DNA of 64,000 nt from positions 992,001-1,056,000 of the forward strand of contig NZ_CP077107.1 in assembly GCF_019263745.1 (NCBI RefSeq), in the 5' to 3' direction. Made by a program: the position numbers and the translations under genes. The notes under the pieces are model-generated. The model worked only from the letters and a program-made list of their open reading frames with translations, was not told the DNA's origin and ran no database searches. The stretch comes from Methanospirillum hungatei (GTDB lineage Archaea; Halobacteriota; Methanomicrobia; Methanomicrobiales; Methanospirillaceae). The stretch's first letter is position 1. Every line of letters starts with the position of its first letter. Below, one piece after another: positions 44,378 to 58,991 of this stretch.

Positions 44378-44974
44378 TCAGATCTTTGGTGCAAGACGTT
44401 CTTCAGCCTTGCTTAGAAGAATGTCTGCCCCGAGTGCAATAATCATGGCAGGGATAATTCCGATAAGAATGCTTGTAGTATGATATCTGACCAGTCCTTC
44501 AAGAACAACAGCTCCAAGCCCTCCGCTTCCGATGAACACCGTCACAATGGCTACAGAATTTGCAACAATTGACGAAAGACGCAATCCTGCAAATATTGGT
44601 CGAATCGCAAGAGGAAACCGGGTATATCTCATCGTCTGGAAAAATGTAAAACCCATACCCTCTGATGCATCAATATAGACCGGACTGATAGTAGAGAGAC
44701 CAATACTGGTATTTCGAAGAACTGGAAGAAGTGTGGTTACTATTACCACGACAACTGCCGGGACAAACCCTATTCCAAGAAATGGTACGACAAGAGCAAC
44801 GATGGTGAAGGCTGGTATGGATTGGAGCAGGCTGGAGCCTGAAAGGAGAAGAGTTTTCAGGATATGCCATCTGACGGTGAGAACACCTCCGATTATTCCA
44901 ATTCCGGCAGAAATAAAAAATCCGGAGTATACCAGGACAAGATGCTGCCAGATTGCAAGCTCCAGCGGTATCAT
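44378..44974 (-). CDS. Osmoprotectant ABC permease (OpuBD/ProW-like)
   Basis: 198-residue permease, five to six spans. Landmarks: PAFTIVALVVPFLGIGFVPA, split as in OpuB/OpuC permeases, and the EAA-type loop YIDASEGMGFTFFQTMRY. It overlaps the upstream permease by 4 bp. Together with the sister permease, the ATPase and the binding protein it forms an Opu-type importer for glycine betaine, choline or a related solute. Confidence 0.88.
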   Translation of the reverse strand: MIPLELAIWQHLVLVYSGFFISAGIGIIGGVLTVRWHILKTLLLSGSSLLQSIPAFTIVALVVPFLGIGFVPAVVVVIVTTLLPVLRNTSIGLSTISPVYIDASEGMGFTFFQTMRYTRFPLAIRPIFAGLRLSSIVANSVAIVTVFIGSGGLGAVVLEGLVRYHTTSILIGIIPAMIIALGADILLSKAEERLAPKI

Positions 44975-45618
44975 GACTGGTCTCCATATCGGTTAGTCAG
45001 GAATCGTTCACAAAGTCCGGCACATGCATCCATAAAAACTGCCAATAGTCCAATCCATAAACCAGTAACCAAAATTAGCGTCATATTATTCCGGGTTATC
45101 CCGGCCTGTAAAGCTGCACCAAGTCCCCTGGCTCCAATTATACCGCCTAGCGTTACTATACCCATACTGTATACAACCGCTGTCCGAACACCCCCGGCAA
45201 TAAGAGGGAGGCTGAGTGGAAGCCGGATATGTCGTAAAATCTCAATACTCGTCATCCCAAGTGAGCTTCCCACCTCCAGGAGTTCAGGCCTTATGATGGT
45301 AAGACCTGTCATCGTATTGCGGACAATGGGGAGGAGAGAGTAAAGCACTGCTGCTGCAATGGTTGGCGTTGCACCAATACCGGTGAGAGGTATCAAAAGG
45401 AGCAGAAGGGCGATGTCAGGGATCATCTCAATGATATTGAGTATCTGGATGATAATCGAAAACCGGGGGGATAGGGCAGCAATGATACCAAGAGGCAGTC
45501 CGATTACTAGAATAAGGATAAGAGCAGTTCCAAAGAGACTGAGATGAATGAGAGTAAGACCAGTAAGATTGAACTGAGTCCAGACAGAACTGACCATAGA
45601 AAACATGTTTTGTATCAT
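44971..45618 (-). CDS. Osmoprotectant ABC permease (OpuBB/ProW-like)
   Basis: 215-residue permease, sister of the next gene downstream. Landmarks: GIIAALSPRFSIIIQILN, the IPDIALLLLLIPLTGIGATP span, and the EAA-type loop LLEVGSSLGMTSIEILRHIRLP. It overlaps the ATPase gene by 4 bp. Second membrane half of the importer. Confidence 0.88.
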   Translation of the reverse strand: MIQNMFSMVSSVWTQFNLTGLTLIHLSLFGTALILILVIGLPLGIIAALSPRFSIIIQILNIIEMIPDIALLLLLIPLTGIGATPTIAAAVLYSLLPIVRNTMTGLTIIRPELLEVGSSLGMTSIEILRHIRLPLSLPLIAGGVRTAVVYSMGIVTLGGIIGARGLGAALQAGITRNNMTLILVTGLWIGLLAVFMDACAGLCERFLTNRYGDQS

Positions 45619-46748
45619 TCAGGTGAACCAAAAAGGAACTGCAGGATATCATCCAGGAGAATTATCCTGATTTGAGAATCACTCATTTCCTGTGAGTTTA
45701 CCGAAGTATGCATGACTGCAACGTGTGATCTGGCATTCGTGTATGCTGTAACGACATCCTGAACCGTTGCATCCTCATCTACCAATGAAACCGGAGAAAG
45801 AGTATGCATTGATCCAGGAGTGGATGCATGATAAATGCCCTCTTCACCTTTGTACAGGATAACCTTCGTTCCATAATCAGACTGGTTTATTTGTGAGTAT
45901 TCTGCCAGGGGGAACAGTATGAATGATCCAGAGCGGAGTGCAAAAGAAATTGCAGGAAGGCTGGTTCTATACGAGAGATGGTCATCTCCAATAAAATAAG
46001 AAAGAACCGGATCAGAACGGGCAGATCCGATGAGATCCTGTGGTGTTCCCACCGTATGGAGCCGTCCCTCATGGAAGAGGGCTATTCGATCACCGAGAAG
46101 AAATGCCTCATGGATATCATGAGTAACAAAAATAATGGTAATTCCAAGATTTTTTTTAATTTCAAGAAACTCTTTTTGTAGTTTTCGTCTCAGGAGCGGG
46201 TCAAGTGCTCCGAATGGCTCATCCATGAGAAGGAGTGGTGGGTTTGTAGCAAGTGCCCGTGCCAGGCCGACCCGCTGTTGTTCACCCCCGGAGAGTTCTG
46301 CAGGCTTTCTGTTCTGAAACATTTCAGGATCCAACCTGACCAGGGAGAGCAAATTTTTAATTTTCTGTGATATCTCATCCTCTTGTGCTCCAGAAATACG
46401 TAAAGGCAGTCCGATATTAGCGGATACCGATAGATGAGGGAGGAGACCAATTTGTTGTATTACATATCCGATTGACCGGCGCAATGAGAGGGGATGAAGA
46501 GAAGAAACCGGAATATCATTGATGTATATAACACCATTATCTGGTTCGATGAGCCGGTTTATCATTCGGATAGTTGTTGTTTTTCCTGACCCACTCCCTC
46601 CCATAAGAACAAGAAGTTCTCCGCCCTGGATAGTAAGTGAGATATCCTGGACAGCTGGGACTCCATTATAGGATTTACTCACAGAATCGAGTTTTATAGT
46701 GGTGATGTATTCCCAGGGAACTGATGACTTTTCTGGTCTTTGCAACAT
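45615..46748 (-). CDS. Osmoprotectant ABC ATPase (OpuCA/ProV-like)
   Basis: 377-residue ATPase. Walker A GGSGSGKTT (50-58), signature LSGGEQQR, Walker B LLMDEPFGALD, switch histidine in VTHDIHEAF. Beyond the ATPase core, a C-terminal region of ~110 residues holds one CBS-like unit (SLVDEDATVQDVVTAY), the regulatory domain that senses ionic strength in OpuA-type importers; here only one clear repeat is seen. It is the second gene of the operon. Confidence 0.88.
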   Translation of the reverse strand: MLQRPEKSSVPWEYITTIKLDSVSKSYNGVPAVQDISLTIQGGELLVLMGGSGSGKTTTIRMINRLIEPDNGVIYINDIPVSSLHPLSLRRSIGYVIQQIGLLPHLSVSANIGLPLRISGAQEDEISQKIKNLLSLVRLDPEMFQNRKPAELSGGEQQRVGLARALATNPPLLLMDEPFGALDPLLRRKLQKEFLEIKKNLGITIIFVTHDIHEAFLLGDRIALFHEGRLHTVGTPQDLIGSARSDPVLSYFIGDDHLSYRTSLPAISFALRSGSFILFPLAEYSQINQSDYGTKVILYKGEEGIYHASTPGSMHTLSPVSLVDEDATVQDVVTAYTNARSHVAVMHTSVNSQEMSDSQIRIILLDDILQFLFGSPE

Positions 46749-46754
46749 AAAAAA

Positions 46755-47654
46755 TCAGAGTAGTCCCTGACTTATCAGGAATTCCTCTGCTATCGCTCCG
46801 GTGTCCATTTTATCCACATCAAATTTGCGGTTTAGTGAACGCATTGTTTCAGTATCAATCAGTCCCATAACCTGCTCAAGTGTGGACATAAAGACAGGGT
46901 CAGTACCTCGTCCAGATGTAACAAGCAGAATACTGTCATATGGGGCAAGGGCAGCCTTATCATCTGAAAGTGTCGTAAGATTGAAGAGATCTATTCGTGC
47001 ATCAGTAGAACTTGCCGGAATGATATCAACCTGCCCCATATCAACCGCCTGATACAGAAGAGTGGGTTCCATTGGCACGACATCCTGAAAAGAGTATCCA
47101 TAGACTTTTTCAAGATTAGGAAGCCCATAGAGTTCATCCAGATGGAAAACAAGATCAGAACCTAACACCATCTCTGATGTGTAAGGTGCCAGATCACTTA
47201 TTGTTCCTACCGGATATTCAGATGCAAATTCTTCAGATACTGCCATCTGGTAATCATTTCGAAATCCGACTTTTCCACCCCATACAACATCATCTTCGGT
47301 TACCATCTTTTTCACTGCAGTGGTCACCACATCAGGATCAAGACTTTCAAATGCTGGCGCTTCTTCAAAATATGTCGGAATTGCACTGGTATAGTCAACA
47401 TACAGATCTATCTGTCCGTTTTTGACTCCCTGATATAGCATGACATTATTTAAACCTGAGTTTATCTCATACGTATACCCGTTTTTTTCCAGGAGCTTAC
47501 CAAACATTTCTGCAAGGATATACTGCTCATTAAAGGGCATTGCTCCGATAACAACGGTTTTTTCTGAAGGAGAACTCGTCTGTCCCATGACCGGAATTAT
47601 GCACCCGCTCAGAAACAGGATAACCAAAATCCCCAATACCATCTTTCGTATCAT
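46755..47654 (-). CDS. Osmoprotectant-binding protein (OpuBC/ProX-like)
   Basis: 299-residue binding protein of the OpuAC family. The signal peptide contains LSGCIIPVMG, a plausible lipobox with C18, so the protein is probably lipid-anchored. Landmarks: KTVVIGAMPFNEQYILAEMF (first strand and helix), VDYTSAIPTYFE, and QVDIIPASSTDARID. First gene of a minus-strand operon with ATPase and two permeases. Glycine betaine, choline or ectoine-like solutes are the usual ligands. Confidence 0.88.
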   Translation of the reverse strand: MIRKMVLGILVILFLSGCIIPVMGQTSSPSEKTVVIGAMPFNEQYILAEMFGKLLEKNGYTYEINSGLNNVMLYQGVKNGQIDLYVDYTSAIPTYFEEAPAFESLDPDVVTTAVKKMVTEDDVVWGGKVGFRNDYQMAVSEEFASEYPVGTISDLAPYTSEMVLGSDLVFHLDELYGLPNLEKVYGYSFQDVVPMEPTLLYQAVDMGQVDIIPASSTDARIDLFNLTTLSDDKAALAPYDSILLVTSGRGTDPVFMSTLEQVMGLIDTETMRSLNRKFDVDKMDTGAIAEEFLISQGLL

Positions 47655-47742
47655 CGTAAAAGGGGAATATGATGAAGAATAAGATTAACCTTTTGATGAA
47701 GAAAAATTATCCAGATGAAGATAAATCTAAAAATTACAGGTA

Positions 47743-48783
47743 TTAATCAATAAACCGGTATGCCCCGTTGGGAACAAATATTTCAAACCGTGCTCCCTGA
47801 CCAAACTGACCGGACTCTCTCATTGAGAGACCAGTAATTGCCAGGATCTCCCGACTTAAAAAGAGACCCATACCAGTATTTTTTCCATATCCCCGCTCGA
47901 AAATTTTTTCTTTTTCATCAATGGGAATTCCATTTCCATTATCTTCATATACCAGGATAAGCGAATCACCCTCCTCATAAGAGGACAGCGTAATACTCGT
48001 GACCTTCTCTCCGTGACGGATTGAATTATCTATCAGATTTGGAAAAATGAGTGGAAAGAGAGGATCTGCAAATATCTCAAGGGAAGATACTGACTCTGAA
48101 ATTATTATCGAATGATTCGGATAGGAAGGTGTAAGCTCATGAAAGTATCCTTTAATATTGTACCAGACCGGTTCTTTCACCCCGATATCCTCGTAATTCC
48201 TCGTAAACTCAATCTGTTTCTGAATGGTGTTCATGATCCTTTGTTCTTTGTGAATTATCTCAAGATGTGCAGGATCATGTGTTAATTCTTCAGATAAATC
48301 CATATATCCAAGGAGCGGGGTTAACTGATTGAGAATATCGTGACGAGTAATACTTGAAAGCAGGTTGAGTTTTTTATTGGCAGTCTTAAATGCTTCTTTT
48401 GTCCTCTCAAGCTCTCCGTTCTGTATTGCCACTTCATCTCTGAAATGAGTCATACATGCAACAATGGATCCGGCAATATACGCAATCATACAAAGCATGA
48501 GTGCACGGAAAACTGGTTCATAGGCAAGATGCCCTGAATTAAAATAATACACCACAATATGGAGAAGACCAAAAAACAGGGCAAGATAAACGGCATCACG
48601 CTTGTACCAGATCGCTGCAAGGAGTATGAGCAGATAAAAAATATGCGTATAAACGTATGGAATTTTGAGTGAATAATGGACGACATATTCAAGAAGAACA
48701 CCGATTAAAATAAAGATCAGAAGTGATAGGACTTTTGATTGAACAATAAAGACCTGACAAAAGTCATCCGGTTTAATTGGCAT
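47743..48783 (-). CDS. Membrane sensor histidine kinase
   Basis: 346-residue kinase. Four to five spans in the first ~110 residues, a short coiled linker, the phosphoacceptor in RHDILNQL (H148), and an HATPase domain with N-box FPNLIDNSIRHG (247-258), G1 DNGNGIP (281-287) and G2 GYGKNTGMGL (298-307). The RHD type of H-box is common in methanogen kinases. No response regulator is adjacent, so its partner is elsewhere. Confidence 0.88.
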   Translation of the reverse strand: MPIKPDDFCQVFIVQSKVLSLLIFILIGVLLEYVVHYSLKIPYVYTHIFYLLILLAAIWYKRDAVYLALFFGLLHIVVYYFNSGHLAYEPVFRALMLCMIAYIAGSIVACMTHFRDEVAIQNGELERTKEAFKTANKKLNLLSSITRHDILNQLTPLLGYMDLSEELTHDPAHLEIIHKEQRIMNTIQKQIEFTRNYEDIGVKEPVWYNIKGYFHELTPSYPNHSIIISESVSSLEIFADPLFPLIFPNLIDNSIRHGEKVTSITLSSYEEGDSLILVYEDNGNGIPIDEKEKIFERGYGKNTGMGLFLSREILAITGLSMRESGQFGQGARFEIFVPNGAYRFID

Positions 48784-48832: not shown

Positions 48833-49495
48833 TCACTTTGTGATATCCCGGATCATCAGGGAAATCTCCCCATCCATACCTGAAAAAAATGATGATCCGT
48901 TTGGTTTGAATGAGTCATAGGGTATTGTTCCAGCCATGTGAAATCCACATGATCCAAACGCCTGGGTTGAAGCATCACTCGTACAGTCCGCAATTACATA
49001 TGAATATCCTAAACCTGCACCATGAGCCATGATTTTTTCAATGCATGCCCGTGCAATTCCGCATCTCCGGTACCGCCGGTCAGTTCCTATCTGAAATACA
49101 TGCAATACAGAACCTTTCCTAATTTCAGAGACGGTTAAAAATCTCCTCTCAAGCTCATCAATTAACAAAACAGTATCCTGAAAAGATGATAAAAACCGCA
49201 CCATCTCTTCACCTTCATTCCTGATATCATCTGTCAAATCCAGACAGAAAATAAATCCTATAACCTCACCAGTCCTGGTATCAAGGCTTACAAAACTCAA
49301 ATTTTTAGAGATTAATGATCTCACATAATACTCAGCATAGGGAAGAAATTGTGTGGGATTTGGGGCATGGCGATGGGTGGTCGGTTCATCAGAGATAAAA
49401 ACATGAGAGTAGAGTCTTGCAGCCTCCCGGTACGTGTCATGTGAAAGAGGTTGCATATGAATGTGTTCCGAAGAAAAGGGGAATATAGTCGTCAT
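48833..49495 (-). CDS. GNAT-family N-acetyltransferase
   Basis: 220-residue acetyltransferase. Acetyl-CoA-binding motif A is seen in RRYRRCGIARACIEKIM (the R/QxxGxG/A pattern), with strand VIADCTSDASTQAFGSCGF after it. The N-terminal part is divergent and sets the substrate, which is unknown. Single gene, minus strand, opposite the CooS-like operon. Confidence 0.8.
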   Translation of the reverse strand: MTTIFPFSSEHIHMQPLSHDTYREAARLYSHVFISDEPTTHRHAPNPTQFLPYAEYYVRSLISKNLSFVSLDTRTGEVIGFIFCLDLTDDIRNEGEEMVRFLSSFQDTVLLIDELERRFLTVSEIRKGSVLHVFQIGTDRRYRRCGIARACIEKIMAHGAGLGYSYVIADCTSDASTQAFGSCGFHMAGTIPYDSFKPNGSSFFSGMDGEISLMIRDITK

Positions 49496-49746: not shown

Positions 49747-51648
49747 ATGGAGGACAACCGCATTTCCTACCACACCTCAGTGAAAACCGCCTACAAGCGG
49801 ATCAAGGAAGATGGACTTACGAACATCTGGGACCGGTTTGAGGCACAAGGTCTGGGCGACCCTGATAAACGATGTGCCTTCTGCATGGGGGGAGTCAGAT
49901 GTGACTTCTGCTCAAATGGTCCCTGCAGGGCTGATGCATCAAAAGATAAACGGGGTGTCTGCGGTATTACCGCCGATGGGATGGCAATGCGGATGATGCT
50001 CCTTCGAAATGTCATGGGGGCATCGACCTACCAGTATCATGCAGCAGCAACAATCAGGACGCTTCGAAAAACGGCTGAAGGAAAGACGCCATATTCTATC
50101 AAAGAACCTGGAAAACTGAAAGGGTTTGCAGAACGTCTGAAGGTGGATACTTCAGGATCAGAACAGGACCTTGTATTCAGGTTATGTGATTTTCTTGAAA
50201 AACAATGGCATCTTCCCGGATATGAAGAATCTGCGATCGTAAAAGCATTAGCTCCGGAAGAGAGACAAAAAGTCTGGAAATCATTGGATATTTTCCCCGG
50301 AGGGATATATTCAGAAATGATGATGGCGACCTCGTCATCGCTTACCAATGTAGACGGATATTATGTCAGTCTTGCGAAAAAAGCGATGAGAATGTCAATC
50401 GCCATGGCATATCAGACCCAGATAGTCCTCGAATACCTACAGGATGTACTATTCGGAATTCCCAGGCCACATGTGTTCCGGACCGATCTTGGGGTGCTGG
50501 ATCCTGATTATGTGAATATCCTGCCAAATGGTCATGAACCCTTTATGGGATTTGCCCTTGTTGAAATTGCACGAAAACCTGAATGGCAGGAGAAAGCACG
50601 GAAAGCAGGTGCAAAAGGAATTCACATCATTGCAAACATTGAAACCGGACAGGAGATGATCCAACGGTGGGAGATGGATGATGTCTTTTATGGGTATACC
50701 GGTAACTGGATCATGCAGGAAGCGGTATTTGCAACCGGTGCGGTCGATGTCTTTGTAGCAGATATGAACTGCTCCATGCCGATTGATCCGATGTATGCAC
50801 AAAAATACCAGTTTAAACTACTTCCGGTGAGTGATCTGGTTGCCTTCGAAGGGATTGATGAGCGGCTGAATTATATCCCTGAGGATGTAAAAATTCAGGC
50901 AGAAAAAATCCTTGATATGGGAATTGAAAACTTCCCAAAACGGAAGAGCCAGGTAAAACCATTAACCGGTCTGCCAGTTCAGGAGGCAATTGTCGGCTTT
51001 TCTCCGGAGAGTATTCTCGGAGCTCTTGGTGGAACACTCGATCCCCTGCTTGATGCAATTAAAAACGGCTCCATTAAGGGGATCGCCGGACTTGTGAGCT
51101 GTACATCTCTTCGTGATAACGGACAGGACGTTCACAGCGTTGCAATCGCAAAAGAACTTATCAAACGGGACATCCTAATCCTCGCTATGGGATGTGGCAG
51201 TGCTGCTATGGAGGTATCTGGTCTATGTGATCCAAAAGCAGCAGAACTCGCAGGTCCAGGTCTGAAAGTAGTATGTCAGGCACTGAAAGTGCCCCCGGTC
51301 CTGGCATTTGGAACCTGTACAGATACCGGAAGATGTGCAGACCTGGTTGCCGCAGTATCGGCAGCACTTGGTGGTGTTCCGATTCCTGATCTGCCTGTAG
51401 TCGCAGCGGCTCCTGAATATATGGAACAAAAAGCAACCATTGATGCTATATTTGCCCTGGCATTTGGTCTGTATACGTATGTAAATCCAGTGCCATTTGT
51501 TACCGGAGCACCATCACTGGTAAAATTACTGACTGAAGATCTCCCGGGAGTGACCGGAGGAATTCTCCATGTGGAGCAGGATGCAGTACAGGCAGCAGAT
51601 GCCATGCTTGCTCATATTATGACAAACCGAAAAAAACTTGGAATATAA
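49747..51648 (+). CDS. cooS: Divergent CooS-like Ni-CO dehydrogenase
   Basis: 634-residue homologue of anaerobic CO dehydrogenase. Cluster-B-type cysteines are C52, C55, C60 and one near GVCGI. Cluster D has C43 and C46 (CX2C, as in the Desulfovibrio vulgaris enzyme, rather than CX7C). Cluster C ligands are mostly kept: H263 (GHEP), C342, C452, C483 and C524, with K562. But the conserved ICCTGNE segment reads NIETGQE here, so the Cys pair is I298-E299, removing the ligand equivalent to Cys295 of C. hydrogenoformans CODH-II. The catalytic His93 position is Y95 and the next ladder histidine is A101. CO oxidation is doubtful; a changed active site is likely. Co-transcribed with a cupin and a CxxC protein; no cooC or cooF is nearby. 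Confidence 0.88.
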   Translation: MEDNRISYHTSVKTAYKRIKEDGLTNIWDRFEAQGLGDPDKRCAFCMGGVRCDFCSNGPCRADASKDKRGVCGITADGMAMRMMLLRNVMGASTYQYHAAATIRTLRKTAEGKTPYSIKEPGKLKGFAERLKVDTSGSEQDLVFRLCDFLEKQWHLPGYEESAIVKALAPEERQKVWKSLDIFPGGIYSEMMMATSSSLTNVDGYYVSLAKKAMRMSIAMAYQTQIVLEYLQDVLFGIPRPHVFRTDLGVLDPDYVNILPNGHEPFMGFALVEIARKPEWQEKARKAGAKGIHIIANIETGQEMIQRWEMDDVFYGYTGNWIMQEAVFATGAVDVFVADMNCSMPIDPMYAQKYQFKLLPVSDLVAFEGIDERLNYIPEDVKIQAEKILDMGIENFPKRKSQVKPLTGLPVQEAIVGFSPESILGALGGTLDPLLDAIKNGSIKGIAGLVSCTSLRDNGQDVHSVAIAKELIKRDILILAMGCGSAAMEVSGLCDPKAAELAGPGLKVVCQALKVPPVLAFGTCTDTGRCADLVAAVSAALGGVPIPDLPVVAAAPEYMEQKATIDAIFALAFGLYTYVNPVPFVTGAPSLVKLLTEDLPGVTGGILHVEQDAVQAADAMLAHIMTNRKKLGI

Positions 51649-51664: not shown

Positions 51665-52012
51665 GTGGCAGAAAAAAACAGAGAAGAATTACTTGGAAAA
51701 GTATTGAATCTGAAAGACCTGATTGCGTACCAGGACGGAACCATTGCAAGCCGGATGATAATTAATCAAAAGACAGGATCAATCACCCTTTTTTCGTTTG
51801 ATGAAGATGAAGGACTTTCAGAACATACGGCACCGTTTGATGCCGTGGTAACAATCCTTGATGGCGAGTGTGAAGTCTGGATTGATGGTGTTACTTCACC
51901 TATGAAAGAAGGTGAGACGATAATTTTTCCGGCAAATGTCCCTCATGCTCTGAGTGCGACTACCCGGTTTAAGATGATGCTTACGATGATTCGGGAGAAG
52001 GCAGATGAGTGA
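51665..52012 (+). CDS. Cupin-domain protein
   Basis: 115-residue single cupin, GTG start at 51665 with GGAG eight bases ahead. Cupin motif 1 is EHTAPFDAVVTILDGECEVW and motif 2 is FPANVPHALSA, with H in each as possible metal ligands. It begins 16 bp after the CooS-like stop and overlaps the next gene by 8 bp, so all three belong to one message. Cupins of this size bind metals or small ligands and can be enzymes or sensors; no closer assignment is possible. Confidence 0.82.
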   Translation: MAEKNREELLGKVLNLKDLIAYQDGTIASRMIINQKTGSITLFSFDEDEGLSEHTAPFDAVVTILDGECEVWIDGVTSPMKEGETIIFPANVPHALSATTRFKMMLTMIREKADE

Positions 52013-52271
52013 TGACAAAGATGGTGTGTATTGTAAAGTCTGTGGGGGAATAGTTCCAGAATCTATACAGATCAAGCAAATCCTGGTAGATGGGAAAGCA
52101 ACCGGGATTAATCAACTTGATTTTATCATTGCTGAAGTGAAAAAACTAGGGTTCCTGAGCAATGCTGAAATTAAATCAGAACTGTTAAAACGAGCAAAGG
52201 TTCTCAACTATATCCCAACAAAAAAAGAAGAAGCGTATGCCCAGGGGTTACTGGAAGCCTATTTAAGATGA
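52005..52271 (+). CDS. Small CxxC protein, unrecognised
   Basis: 88-residue protein with one CKVC pair near the N-terminus (VYCKVCGGIVPES) followed by a compact domain: QILVDGKATGINQLDFIIAE, then an ELLKRAKVLNYIPTKKEE segment and a C-terminal helix. I do not place it in a named family, though the VDGK...GI pattern feels conserved. A redox or metal role next to a CODH-like enzyme is attractive. The start overlaps the cupin gene. Confidence 0.7.
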   Translation: MSDDKDGVYCKVCGGIVPESIQIKQILVDGKATGINQLDFIIAEVKKLGFLSNAEIKSELLKRAKVLNYIPTKKEEAYAQGLLEAYLR

Positions 52272-52535: not shown

Positions 52536-53717
52536 TTATTCTGCACGGAGAGCTTCTATTGGATCCATCTGGGCACCCCGCCATGCCGGATATAAACCGG
52601 ATAGGATACAGATTATCAGGCCAACACCCATGGCATATGGAAGATGGATGAGACTGTCATAGGTAAAGAAATGTTTCGTATTTCCCACCATTATCAGGAT
52701 AAAAAAATACCCCATGATAATACTTAAGATCATACCCAGGATTGCTCCAAGAAGCCCAATCAGGGTTGCCTCATAGACAAACATACGAAGAATTTCTTTC
52801 TTTTGAGTCCCGATACTCCGCAGAACACCAATCTCCCTGATACGTTCAGTAACCGACATCATCATAATATTAAATATTGAGACTGCAGCGACTAGTAAAG
52901 AGATACTTGCAATCAGTGTTGCAAAACTGGTGATCGTGCTGACCGAGGAGGAGATCATAGATACCATTCTACTGGAGTCCTGAACACGTACGGTCTCCTC
53001 TCTCCGGTTCATCTGCGATTCTATCTCATTGGAAACCGTCGTAGCATCATTGATATCATTGAGAACGATATTGACCTGGTTATATTCATCCTTCGCCCCA
53101 TAGAGTGATTCATACATATTTTTTGTCATAATAACGGCATTATCTGTACTTAAATCCATTGACATTCCTCTGGACTCGATAATGCCGGATACCTTGACAC
53201 CAGAATTTGATATTGAAAAACGGCTCCCAACCTTAAACTCATTATCCTCTGCAAATCCTGAACCGATAAGGACCGAGTTATCACTACTCGGATACCCTCC
53301 TGCAGAGAGGTTATCCAGAATAGTTTTCATGGTACTCACTTCTAGACCATAAATTTGGGTATTCCATTCATCTTTTCCTTTCTTTACCTTCCCCCGAATG
53401 GAATGAACGCCATATACATACCCATATTTACTGGCAATCTTCACTATCGACTTATATTCATTCTTTGTAAGATTGTCTGATCCAGACGATGCACCAGGTG
53501 GTCCGCCTCCTCCGCCTTTTCCGGAATATGGACTGACGGAGAGTTTATCTGCCATTTCAGACAGAGAGTCGGTAACAGATGCAGTCATGTTTGTTCCGAG
53601 CATACCCATGCATGCAATCGATATAATCCCGATAGTTATTCCCACTGCAGCTAAAATCGACCGAAGGAGGTTGATTTTTACATTACGGACAGCCATTGCA
53701 AAAATAATATCCTTCAT
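52536..53717 (-). CDS. FtsX/MacB-type ABC permease
   Basis: 393-residue MacB-type permease: N-terminal span, extracytoplasmic domain with a glycine-proline-serine loop (GKGGGGGPPGASSGS), and three C-terminal spans closing with PAWRGAQMDPIEALRAE. It is the last gene of an operon preceded by an ATPase and a COG1361-type surface protein. It parallels the 34346 gene but is not a close copy. Confidence 0.88.
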   Translation of the reverse strand: MKDIIFAMAVRNVKINLLRSILAAVGITIGIISIACMGMLGTNMTASVTDSLSEMADKLSVSPYSGKGGGGGPPGASSGSDNLTKNEYKSIVKIASKYGYVYGVHSIRGKVKKGKDEWNTQIYGLEVSTMKTILDNLSAGGYPSSDNSVLIGSGFAEDNEFKVGSRFSISNSGVKVSGIIESRGMSMDLSTDNAVIMTKNMYESLYGAKDEYNQVNIVLNDINDATTVSNEIESQMNRREETVRVQDSSRMVSMISSSVSTITSFATLIASISLLVAAVSIFNIMMMSVTERIREIGVLRSIGTQKKEILRMFVYEATLIGLLGAILGMILSIIMGYFFILIMVGNTKHFFTYDSLIHLPYAMGVGLIICILSGLYPAWRGAQMDPIEALRAE

Positions 53718-56538: not shown

Positions 56539-58173
56539 TCAGGTCTCGGCTAACTGATTCAACGTTGTCATGAAATCAGAGATATTCTGATACCGCTCGT
56601 TTGGATCTGCTTGTAATGAGCGTTTTATTATCTCATCAAAGGGCTTGAGATTACTGTTCACTTCTGAAGGAAGAATGTACTGGTTTTTCTGAATCCGGGA
56701 AAATAGTTCCCCGATATTTTGCGTTCCGTATGGGGGAGCCCCGCATAAAAGTTCATAGAGCAATACACCAAGCTGATAAATATCGGTTCGTTGATCACCA
56801 TTCCCATACTTTTCCGGGGCAAGTTGTTCCGGACTTGCATAAAAGAGTGAAAAACTCGTATTTCTGGTATCATCAGCCCGTTCAATGAACCGCGAAAGGC
56901 CCCAGTCAGTAAGTTTTACCGTCCCGTCATCTGCAATAAGTACATTTCCCGGTTTTATATCCCGATGGATAACCCCGTTCTCATGGGCATAGGAGAGTGC
57001 TGATCCAATCTGCACTGTTATTGAGACGGCTCTTTTTGGAGGAACCGGGAGGGTTATGTCTTTGAGTGATCGGGGAATATACTCAAGTTCAACATACGGA
57101 ACCGGAAAGATATTCTGATCTGTTATTTGAGCAATGTGTGGGTGGGATAAGTCCCGCCATACAGACATCTCATTTAAAAATGTCTTTCCACTGGTCTCAT
57201 CAGCAGAGAATGGGATTTTCAGGGCAACCACCATATTGTCAGAATTTTTATTGGCCCGATAGACAACTGCCATTCCCCCACTCCCAATAACAGATATATC
57301 ATGATATTTTGTTGTCAGTTTTTCCGGAAATGAGGGAGGGAGGTCCTGGTTCACCAGAGGAAGGGATCGGGTAATAGTATGATCTGAATTTTCTCTTAGT
57401 TTCGAGAAATCTCCTTTCTGCACAAAATGACTTGTGATTAATGAGAAAGCTGCTCCGGGAGTGATGATAGTAAGTGCTGTTACAATACTTATCTGAAGAG
57501 AAAATGCCACAGGAAACCGGACGGATAATAGGAGAATGATGGCAATTACCGCAAAGAGAATGTGAGCCTGATGTATTGGGACCATCGGACGGTTTTTAAT
57601 GAGTGATACTGCCTGGATTAGCGATGAGAGAATAAGATAGATGATAATCCCGAATGTGGCATAGATAGTGCTCACAAATGGATCCATCCCATTGTTTGAA
57701 GACCGAATCTCATAAAGAGTGAAAATAAACACCCCAATCAGGAATGCACTCAGCAGATGGCACCCGGCAAGCATGATACCAGCCCGGTGAGAACAGGTAT
57801 ACCGGAACTGTGATCCAATCACAATCCCGGCTATACTCATGATAAGAAGAATGATGAGGCTTACACCGATTGATATCAATGGTAACTGCCAGTTTTCAAT
57901 TGGGAGAATCATATCCGGAGGTATCGCATCCCGGGGAAACATTCCCCCCTGACCCTCTGGTGTGAAACGTGATTCTGACTCAGCAGATTGATTAAGATTT
58001 CTGGCATTCAGGTAAAAAGGAATACGATTACTATCATTTGGACCTGGAAATGAGTCAGGCTTAACTTTTGGACTGGAATTATCAATAGTCTGATCTGCCT
58101 GAACAGGGATACATGAGAATATGAGTGCCAGTATGAGGCATATACCTATACAGAGGGTTTTTTGATGAACCAT
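56539..58173 (-). CDS. Membrane Ser/Thr protein kinase (Hanks type)
   Basis: 544-residue protein. A signal peptide ends near residue 26, then ~70 extracytoplasmic residues, then about five spans (98-250), then a cytoplasmic Hanks-type kinase (about 285-540). Kinase motifs: GSGGMAVVYRA, K319 in VVALK, catalytic HRDIKPGN (D405, N410), and DWG (423-425) where DFG is normal, followed by SPE. Sensor membrane part fused to a kinase is the reverse of the common bacterial PknB order. It follows the HTH-FHA gene by 26 bp, so the FHA protein is the likely substrate or reader of phosphorylation. The membrane part may sense an envelope signal. Confidence 0.88.
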   Translation of the reverse strand: MVHQKTLCIGICLILALIFSCIPVQADQTIDNSSPKVKPDSFPGPNDSNRIPFYLNARNLNQSAESESRFTPEGQGGMFPRDAIPPDMILPIENWQLPLISIGVSLIILLIMSIAGIVIGSQFRYTCSHRAGIMLAGCHLLSAFLIGVFIFTLYEIRSSNNGMDPFVSTIYATFGIIIYLILSSLIQAVSLIKNRPMVPIHQAHILFAVIAIILLLSVRFPVAFSLQISIVTALTIITPGAAFSLITSHFVQKGDFSKLRENSDHTITRSLPLVNQDLPPSFPEKLTTKYHDISVIGSGGMAVVYRANKNSDNMVVALKIPFSADETSGKTFLNEMSVWRDLSHPHIAQITDQNIFPVPYVELEYIPRSLKDITLPVPPKRAVSITVQIGSALSYAHENGVIHRDIKPGNVLIADDGTVKLTDWGLSRFIERADDTRNTSFSLFYASPEQLAPEKYGNGDQRTDIYQLGVLLYELLCGAPPYGTQNIGELFSRIQKNQYILPSEVNSNLKPFDEIIKRSLQADPNERYQNISDFMTTLNQLAET

Positions 58174-58199
58174 TCTTTATCCAGGTCACAAAGAGAGAA

Positions 58200-58964
58200 T
58201 TATTCTGCAATAAAAAGGAACCGTGCTGACATGTTCCCAGTTCCAAGAATGACAATATCGCCGTCCACCAGTTCCCGACGGGTCTGAGGTGGTATTGGTT
58301 CAGTATTAATGAACGTCCCTGAAGTACTGCCACAATCCTCAATCTCCCAGGTTTTTCCCTGATACATTCGGGCATGGGGACGACTAATTCGTGAGACTGA
58401 TTTATATTCCTGGGAAAGCATCACGATACCTTTCCCCATTTTTGAGAAACTCATGTCGGTTGGATCAATTCTGCCCAAGGGGATCTTCTCGCCATGAAGA
58501 GAAAAAATCTTACCTTCTTCAGGACCGGATGTCAGATACAGACAGGGAGACGTTACTCCAAACTGTGTGCTGATGTCTTTTCGTATTGTGCTCAATTGGT
58601 TTGCAAGATCTGCATGAGTGATAGTCAACGGAACTTTTGAGAACATAGAAAGATTCGTTATTATCTGCTCCATACCGCCAGGGGCAAGTGAATATTTCCA
58701 TACCGGATGGATTCCGGTCATGGTCTCTGAACTCATCCCTGCATCTTTTCTGACAAGACCGGCAAGAAGAAGTTTATCGATATGTTTCCTGATATTTTCA
58801 TAACTGGTCCGGGTGATCGCCGCGATCTCTTTGAGTTCCATCGGCCTTGTCTCAAGAGAGGAGAGGATCTGCAGCCGGACAGGATTTGCAAGGGCATTTA
58901 GATATTCTGACATCTCTACGAGATACTCAGGGTCTCTTTTGCCCTGAATGGTATTGTCTGTCAT
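58200..58964 (-). CDS. HTH-FHA transcription regulator
   Basis: 254-residue two-domain protein. ATG 58964 (MTDNTIQG) is preferred over GTG 58991. Residues 15-95 form an ArsR-like winged helix (LNALANPVRLQILSSLE, then IAAITRTSYENIRKHIDKL). Residues 140-254 are an FHA domain, which binds phosphothreonine: LGR at 163-165, SRPHA at 194-198, DCGSTSGTF at 210-218, then a DGDIVILG strand. It is transcribed just before the membrane kinase. The coupling of a DNA-binding domain to an FHA domain beside a kinase makes a direct kinase-to-promoter path likely. Confidence 0.88.
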   Translation of the reverse strand: MTDNTIQGKRDPEYLVEMSEYLNALANPVRLQILSSLETRPMELKEIAAITRTSYENIRKHIDKLLLAGLVRKDAGMSSETMTGIHPVWKYSLAPGGMEQIITNLSMFSKVPLTITHADLANQLSTIRKDISTQFGVTSPCLYLTSGPEEGKIFSLHGEKIPLGRIDPTDMSFSKMGKGIVMLSQEYKSVSRISRPHARMYQGKTWEIEDCGSTSGTFINTEPIPPQTRRELVDGDIVILGTGNMSARFLFIAE

Positions 58965-58991
58965 TATCAGGTACCCAAATCTTATGCACAC

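Follow-up and report, generated by a model that had tools for sequence, protein, structure and literature searches.

A CooS-V-Type Protein of Methanospirillum hungatei Is Encoded beside a Gene Pair That Follows hcp in Congeners

Introduction

What is the function of a gene that encodes the scaffold of an anaerobic carbon monoxide dehydrogenase (CODH) without the cysteine pair of cluster C? This question is raised by a locus within a 64,000-nt stretch of the M. hungatei genome (contig NZ_CP077107.1, positions 992,001–1,056,000), hereafter called the window, whose numbering we use unless another locus is named. An earlier note on its sequence had recorded the missing active-site residues and guessed at an enzyme with a different cluster or reaction. 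Here, we compare the encoded protein with its homologs and describe its genomic context, which links a CooS-V-type gene to the hcp cassette and is the new element of this work.

Results

An Intact Gene with a Conserved Noncanonical Active Site

The open reading frame is intact. It starts with an ATG at position 49747, downstream of a GGAGGAG ribosome-binding site, and its translation of 633 aa is of the annotation type anaerobic CODH catalytic subunit, with the cluster C cysteine pair absent. The protein scores 736 bits against TIGR01702 (anaerobic CODH catalytic subunit; cut-off 478). We aligned it with 92 D-1 homologs from archaea and bacteria and with 25 canonical CooS. The following features were identified:

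49747..51648, + strand: group D-1 CooS (CooS-V type), 633 aa (TIGR01702, match to 7b7q, D-1 clade)
49873..49902, + strand: C43-x2-C46-x5-C52, type III D-cluster motif (cysteine positions; 92/92 D-1 homologs)
50029..50031, + strand: Tyr95 where CODHs have the acid-base histidine (tyrosine in 92/92 D-1 homologs, histidine in 25/25 canonical CooS)
50635..50655, + strand: NIETGQE (residues 297–303), with I298-E299 for Cys294-Cys295 in CODH-II numbering (alignment)
51424..51432, + strand: E560-Q-K562, the hybrid-cluster glutamate (Glu556 of CooS-V) and the retained lysine (alignment)

The canonical motif xCCTGNE is replaced by NIETGQE, as the earlier note had read it, and I298 and E299 align with its two cysteines, both of which are present in all 25 canonical CooS. 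The tyrosine that it had placed at the position of CODH-II His93 is likewise Y95. The full ligand set of a Ni,Fe-CODH, five cysteines and one histidine on cluster C, is thus lacking, as the C295 position is occupied by E299, and the catalytic His93 is absent as well. H263, C342, C452, C483, C524, and K562 are all kept at the positions previously given. C52 corresponds to the first cysteine of the B-cluster, and H98 aligns with the second histidine of the canonical HSDHG motif. A101, which had been taken for a further missing ladder step, carries no weight, since this column is variable (E/D/S) in canonical CooS too. Candidate cysteines or histidines relocated to the vacant positions were sought in the alignment, the check that could have overturned the earlier observation, and none was found. 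The comparison adds E299 as a substitute ligand, E560, C46, and the existence of a crystal structure for the group.

Y95, I298, E299, N341, E560, and K562 are each conserved in 92/92 D-1 homologs, whereas the same columns hold H, C, C, Q, S, and K, respectively, in the canonical CooS (n = 25); E560 is thus glutamate throughout D-1 and serine in 25/25 canonical proteins, and the lysine is common to all. As these residues are invariant in 92 homologs and, the lysine apart, differ from those of 25 canonical CooS, the active site is, on the evidence of the alignment, fixed and selected. The same invariance rules out a sequencing error, a degraded gene, or chance.

Assignment to Group D-1 and Relationship to CooS-V

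Structural group D-1 was defined by a type III D-cluster, a Cys to Glu and a His to Tyr replacement, the retained lysine, and a glutamate two residues before it (Inoue et al. 2019, PMC6344411). The window protein has C43/C46/C52, E299, Y95 with K562, and E560, and it branches with CooS-V of Carboxydothermus hydrogenoformans (CooS-V_Ch). In a tree built without targeted sampling of CODH clades B, C, D-2 to D-4, and F, the window protein, its homologs, and CooS-V_Ch form one clade apart from canonical CooS (SH-aLRT 100). The best PDB match is CooS-V_Ch itself (7b7q, E = 9e-202), which shows the same substitutions. The AlphaFold2 model (pLDDT 86, pTM 0.89) retrieves 7b9a and 7b7q first with Foldseek (TM 0.96, rmsd 1.7–1.8 Å, 51% identity), followed by canonical CODHs at 36% identity or less. 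Among solved proteins, CooS-V is therefore the closest in both sequence and predicted fold; comparison with characterized CODHs and structural models was the check that the earlier note had proposed. Its remark that divergent CODH relatives with altered active sites exist also stands: the group has been in the literature since 2019, and the enzyme since 2022. By its sequence, the window protein is a member of this described kind in a new organism.

CooS-V contains an Fe/S/O hybrid cluster, of which Glu295, the equivalent of E299, is a ligand, and gives no Ni signal (Jeoung et al. 2022, PMC9311411). Neither CO oxidation nor CO2 reduction was detectable. The enzyme reduces NH2OH slowly, and NO reduction did not exceed the background. 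Its substrate channel is open solely in the reduced state, and the cluster restructures reversibly with the redox state. In the same study, the C295E variant of CODH-II was Ni-deficient and inactive with CO (PMC9311411). By analogy with CooS-V, we infer for the window protein a hybrid cluster, the lack of CO activity, an electron path through D- and B-clusters, and a channel gated by reduction. Homology, with the full set of D-1 residues and CooS-V as the nearest solved relative, thus supports the different cluster or reaction that had been guessed.

The Locus and Its Equivalent in Congeners

Two small genes lie directly downstream of the CooS-V-type gene in the same orientation, as in an hcp cassette, and the group is bordered by genes of the opposite strand:

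51665..52012, + strand: single-domain cupin, GTG start 17 nt past the CooS stop (Pfam Cupin_2)
52005..52271, + strand: 88-aa protein with a CxxC motif and three helices, overlapping the cupin stop (60–69% identical to the proteins that follow the hcp-linked cupin in congeners)
48833..49495, − strand: GNAT acetyltransferase, divergent, left border (Pfam; synteny in congeners G002 and G010)
52536..53717, − strand: MacB/LolC-like ABC permease, convergent, right border (NCBIfam; synteny)

The cupin is 77–83% identical to those encoded behind hcp in congeners. The 88-aa protein yields a confident model (pLDDT 87.5) with no PDB match below E 0.9 and no known fold or family, and a PHROGs search with both proteins returned nothing convincing. 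Among the neighbors scanned, we found no gene for CooC, CooF, or ACS, the maturation factors and partners of Ni,Fe-CODH.

A D-1 match was obtained in only 1 of the 12 genomes of the genus, the present one, several of the 12 being incomplete. In the closest congener, G002, whose permease is 90% identical, the GNAT and permease genes are separated by 694 nt containing none of the three genes. At the equivalent site, G010 and G009 carry a cupin gene with neither CooS-V nor the small gene. The region upstream of the CooS-V-type gene has no similarity to the equivalent region of G010.

Elsewhere in the window, a Ser/Thr protein kinase gene adjoins a gene encoding an FHA domain and an ArsR-type helix-turn-helix (56539–58991), a pair kept beside the same transporter in some congeners. 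Genes for a glycine-betaine-type ABC transporter lie beside a sensor histidine kinase gene at 44971–48783.

The Same Gene Pair Follows hcp or cooS-V within the Genus

The gene order hcp-cupin-small-rubredoxin is found in G002, G007, G009, and G010, and hcp-cupin-small in G003. The hcp gene of M. hungatei itself (C1:1597245-1598861) is followed after 18 nt by a rubredoxin gene (distance to the longest rubredoxin ORF), with no cupin-small pair. Within the genus, the pair is therefore found behind either hcp or cooS-V, and in this genome it is present behind the latter and missing behind the former. The pair was either relocated, or lost at one site and gained anew at the other, and the cupin tree leaves room for both histories. 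In this tree, the D-1-linked cupins of M. hungatei and of genomes G030 and G051 occupy separate places among the hcp-linked cupins, and the starred branches require the D-1 label to change at least six times, the relevant fork being poorly resolved. At the M. hungatei hcp locus (L232:9006-11307, corresponding to G000:C1:1597005-1599306), an HxlR-type regulator gene (L232:10861-11307) lies directly next to the start of hcp and diverges from it.

A study of methanogens called the hcp genes of classes I and III isolated (PMC10210160). Contrary to this statement, the shared cassette shows that in Methanomicrobia hcp does not stand alone.

hcp-Type Markers at D-1 Loci in Other Lineages

We searched for markers within 1.5 kb of D-1, hcp, and canonical cooS loci, namely the cupin, an FrdX-like ferredoxin (about 260–290 aa), an Rrf2 regulator, and a zinc-ribbon protein, all enriched at D-1 loci, together with the window small protein. 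At least one was present at 40/91 D-1 loci, 50/72 hcp loci (24/30 in Methanomicrobia and 22/29 in Desulfobacterota), and 1/25 canonical cooS loci. The difference between hcp and canonical loci (Fisher P = 6e-9) is independent of the marker choice; that between D-1 and canonical loci (P = 1e-4) is partly circular, as the markers were chosen on D-1, and both values are optimistic given the relatedness of the loci. No hcp-type marker was found at the remaining 51/91 D-1 loci. D-1-linked cupins occur in Methanomicrobiales, Loki-, Frey-, and Jordarchaea, Actinomycetota, and two unplaced bacteria.

In the Desulfobacterota hcp loci (L203–L231), the zinc-ribbon protein is commonly encoded behind hcp (19/29), followed by the FrdX-like ferredoxin (16/29); in its full form, the former carries an HD phosphohydrolase domain (L217:3113-3892). 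With the cupin model used, no cupin was found beside hcp in these 29 loci. A cupin gene is nevertheless known beside hcp in Desulfovibrio desulfuricans, where NO induces it (log2 4.4; hcp 3.2) (PMC5701242), and the negative result suggests that this cupin may belong to another subfamily than the window cupin. In delta-proteobacteria and clostridia, frdX shares operons with hcp (PMC1274295), and its knock-down makes Clostridioides difficile NO-sensitive (PMC12915319). We equated our families with the D. desulfuricans cupin, and named FrdX, by position and domain rather than by alignment.

The idea that hcp and D-1 CooS exclude each other was considered but is unsupported, since both are present here as well as in other Methanomicrobia. 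Among the 43 D-1 genomes reached through their loci, many of them incomplete metagenome-assembled genomes, 33 have no hcp above the cut-off. One D-1-bearing genome contains only hcp fragments (G039:C1:485563-485843), as if the gene were decaying.

Other loci differ in their neighbors. A Lokiarchaeal CooS-V locus contains a desulfoferrodoxin gene (L043:8370-8744), and at L061, also Lokiarchaeal, a divergent gene upstream of CooS-V encodes a 450-aa FAD oxidoreductase with a rubredoxin-like domain at its end; both point to oxygen or nitrosative stress. In Methanoculleus (L044:8328-12220), the cupin-small pair belongs to another cluster, 3.7 kb from CooS-V, with genes for a DUF2115 protein, a second cupin, and a NapH-like Fe-S membrane protein.

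Discussion

A Probable Hybrid-Cluster Reductase in a Stress-Defense Module

As the same two small genes follow hcp in close relatives, the gene context suggests a role in stress defense and not in CO metabolism. The reading that we consider probable is a CooS-V-type hybrid-cluster reductase acting in an Hcp-type stress-defense module with the cupin and the 88-aa protein. The homodimeric CODH scaffold would hold a [2Fe-2S] D-cluster and [4Fe-4S] B-clusters, and an Fe/S/O hybrid cluster, coordinated by H263, E299, C342, C452, C483, C524, and E560, would replace the Ni,Fe cluster C. Electrons would most likely come from a low-potential carrier, such as an FrdX-type ferredoxin or a rubredoxin. The substrate channel would open upon reduction of the enzyme, and a small nitrogen oxide or related oxidant would then be reduced. 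The module, directed at nitrosative or mixed stress, would be common with the Hcp of relatives, the cupin and the 88-aa protein serving as accessories. The physiological role, the electron donor, and cotranscription with the cupin are all proposed from the genomic context. Several points stand against this explanation. CooS-V shows no NO reductase activity above background and turns over NH2OH slowly (PMC9311411); this suggests that the right substrate or an assay partner was missing. More than half of the D-1 loci (51/91) have no hcp-type marker, and the coexistence of D-1 and hcp in some genomes, including this one, argues against a simple replacement of Hcp. A gene neighborhood is, moreover, indirect evidence.

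Very slow turnover, together with a cluster that restructures reversibly, could instead indicate a redox or gas sensor acting without turnover, in which the hybrid cluster would rearrange with the potential and signal through the cupin or the small protein. Redox sensing was suggested for clade D by a 2026 context study, which observed no neighborhood pattern for this clade and set it aside (PMC13056359); the cupin is a possible signaling partner, and a redox-gated channel fits switching. We consider a sensor unlikely, as Hcp, whose place in the cassette CooS-V shares, is reported to be an NO reductase, a substrate channel opening on reduction points to a reductase, and there is neither a fused DNA-binding or kinase domain nor a codirectional regulator in the window.

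The undetected NO reduction is also consistent with a hybrid-cluster enzyme acting on a nonnitrosative substrate, for example peroxide, a sulfur or arsenic species, or an organic oxidant, in a neighborhood devoted to general oxidative stress. Hcp also has peroxidase activity (PMC9311411), and the Lokiarchaeal desulfoferrodoxin and rubredoxin-tailed oxidoreductase fit oxygen or superoxide stress. Against this, NO and nitrite induce those cupin- or FrdX-containing hcp cassettes that have been studied best (PMC5701242, PMC1274295, PMC12915319), and in C. difficile HcpR responds specifically to reactive nitrogen species; such a substrate is quite unlikely.

The adjacency itself could have arisen by insertion of CooS-V beside a resident cupin gene, because G009 and G010 have a cupin at the equivalent site without CooS-V; the closest congener has neither gene. 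That the link with the hcp cassette is a coincidence, the two genes being functionally unrelated, is very unlikely given four observations: the window cupin is closer to the hcp-linked cupins than to the resident G010 cupin (71% identical), it is accompanied by the small gene absent from the resident copies, the hcp locus of this genome lacks exactly the cupin-small pair, and the association is seen again in Asgard archaea, Actinomycetota, Methanomicrobiales, and other bacteria.

A retained Ni,Fe cluster or a role in CO or C1 metabolism, to which the TIGR01702 score, K562, five of the six cluster C ligands, and a reading of Methanosarcina acetivorans genetics as a possible part of D-1 CooS in CO oxidation (as cited in PMC6344411) might be adduced, is highly improbable in view of the replacement of Cys294/295 and His93, the properties of C295E CODH-II and CooS-V, the absence of CooC, CooF, and ACS genes among the neighbors scanned, and the canonical CooS encoded elsewhere in the genome.

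Broader Reading

The proposed reductase in an Hcp-type module also allows a broader reading, possible but tentative. CooS-V-type proteins may be a further line of hybrid-cluster enzymes, interchangeable with Hcp in the cell, with a shared accessory unit serving either and the pair having changed partner, from hcp to cooS-V, inside a single methanogen genus. The unit would consist of the cupin and the 88-aa protein here and, in other lineages, of the FrdX-like ferredoxin and the zinc-ribbon/HD protein. If interchangeability were true, it would give clade D a testable role in nitrosative stress in both bacteria and archaea, including the Asgards; many of these organisms carry D-1 with no detectable hcp. 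Clade D proteins are annotated, and counted in surveys, as CO dehydrogenases, yet the one characterized D-1 enzyme has no CO activity. The shared hcp-type cassette provides a concrete, checkable role with named partner genes, and it supplies candidate partners for an enzyme lacking an assigned electron donor. The word cupin is absent from PMC13056359 and PMC6344411, and in the literature searched we found no paper joining hcp, CODH, and cupin as partners.

Comparison with Known Systems

The window protein has the sequence signature, the clade position, and the predicted fold of its group. It resembles CooS-V of C. hydrogenoformans (7b7q, 7b9a) in fold, in 51% of its residues, in those at the C295, H93, G41, and E556 positions, and in the D- and B-cluster motifs, but the two are separated by a deep split in the tree. 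Every signature residue listed for structural group D-1 of the clade D Ni-CODHs is present; the survey that defined the group tied it to COG1063 and HypA/HypB (PMC6344411), whereas we tie it to hcp-type partners, that is, the cupin, the FrdX-like ferredoxin, the zinc-ribbon protein, and Rrf2. The canonical CooS of the same genome (C1:3062375-3064195) shares the scaffold and 35% identity but keeps CCTGNE and HSDHG, and canonical CooS loci generally have no hcp-type neighbors (24/25). Hcp (TIGR01703) has an equivalent set of hybrid-cluster ligands (PMC6344411), and hcp and cooS-V have the downstream cupin-small pair in common within the genus. Unlike Hcp, which belongs to a different subfamily (28.4 bits for the window protein against a cut-off of 360.8) and is encoded by a separate gene of the same genome, the window protein has B- and D-clusters of the CODH type.
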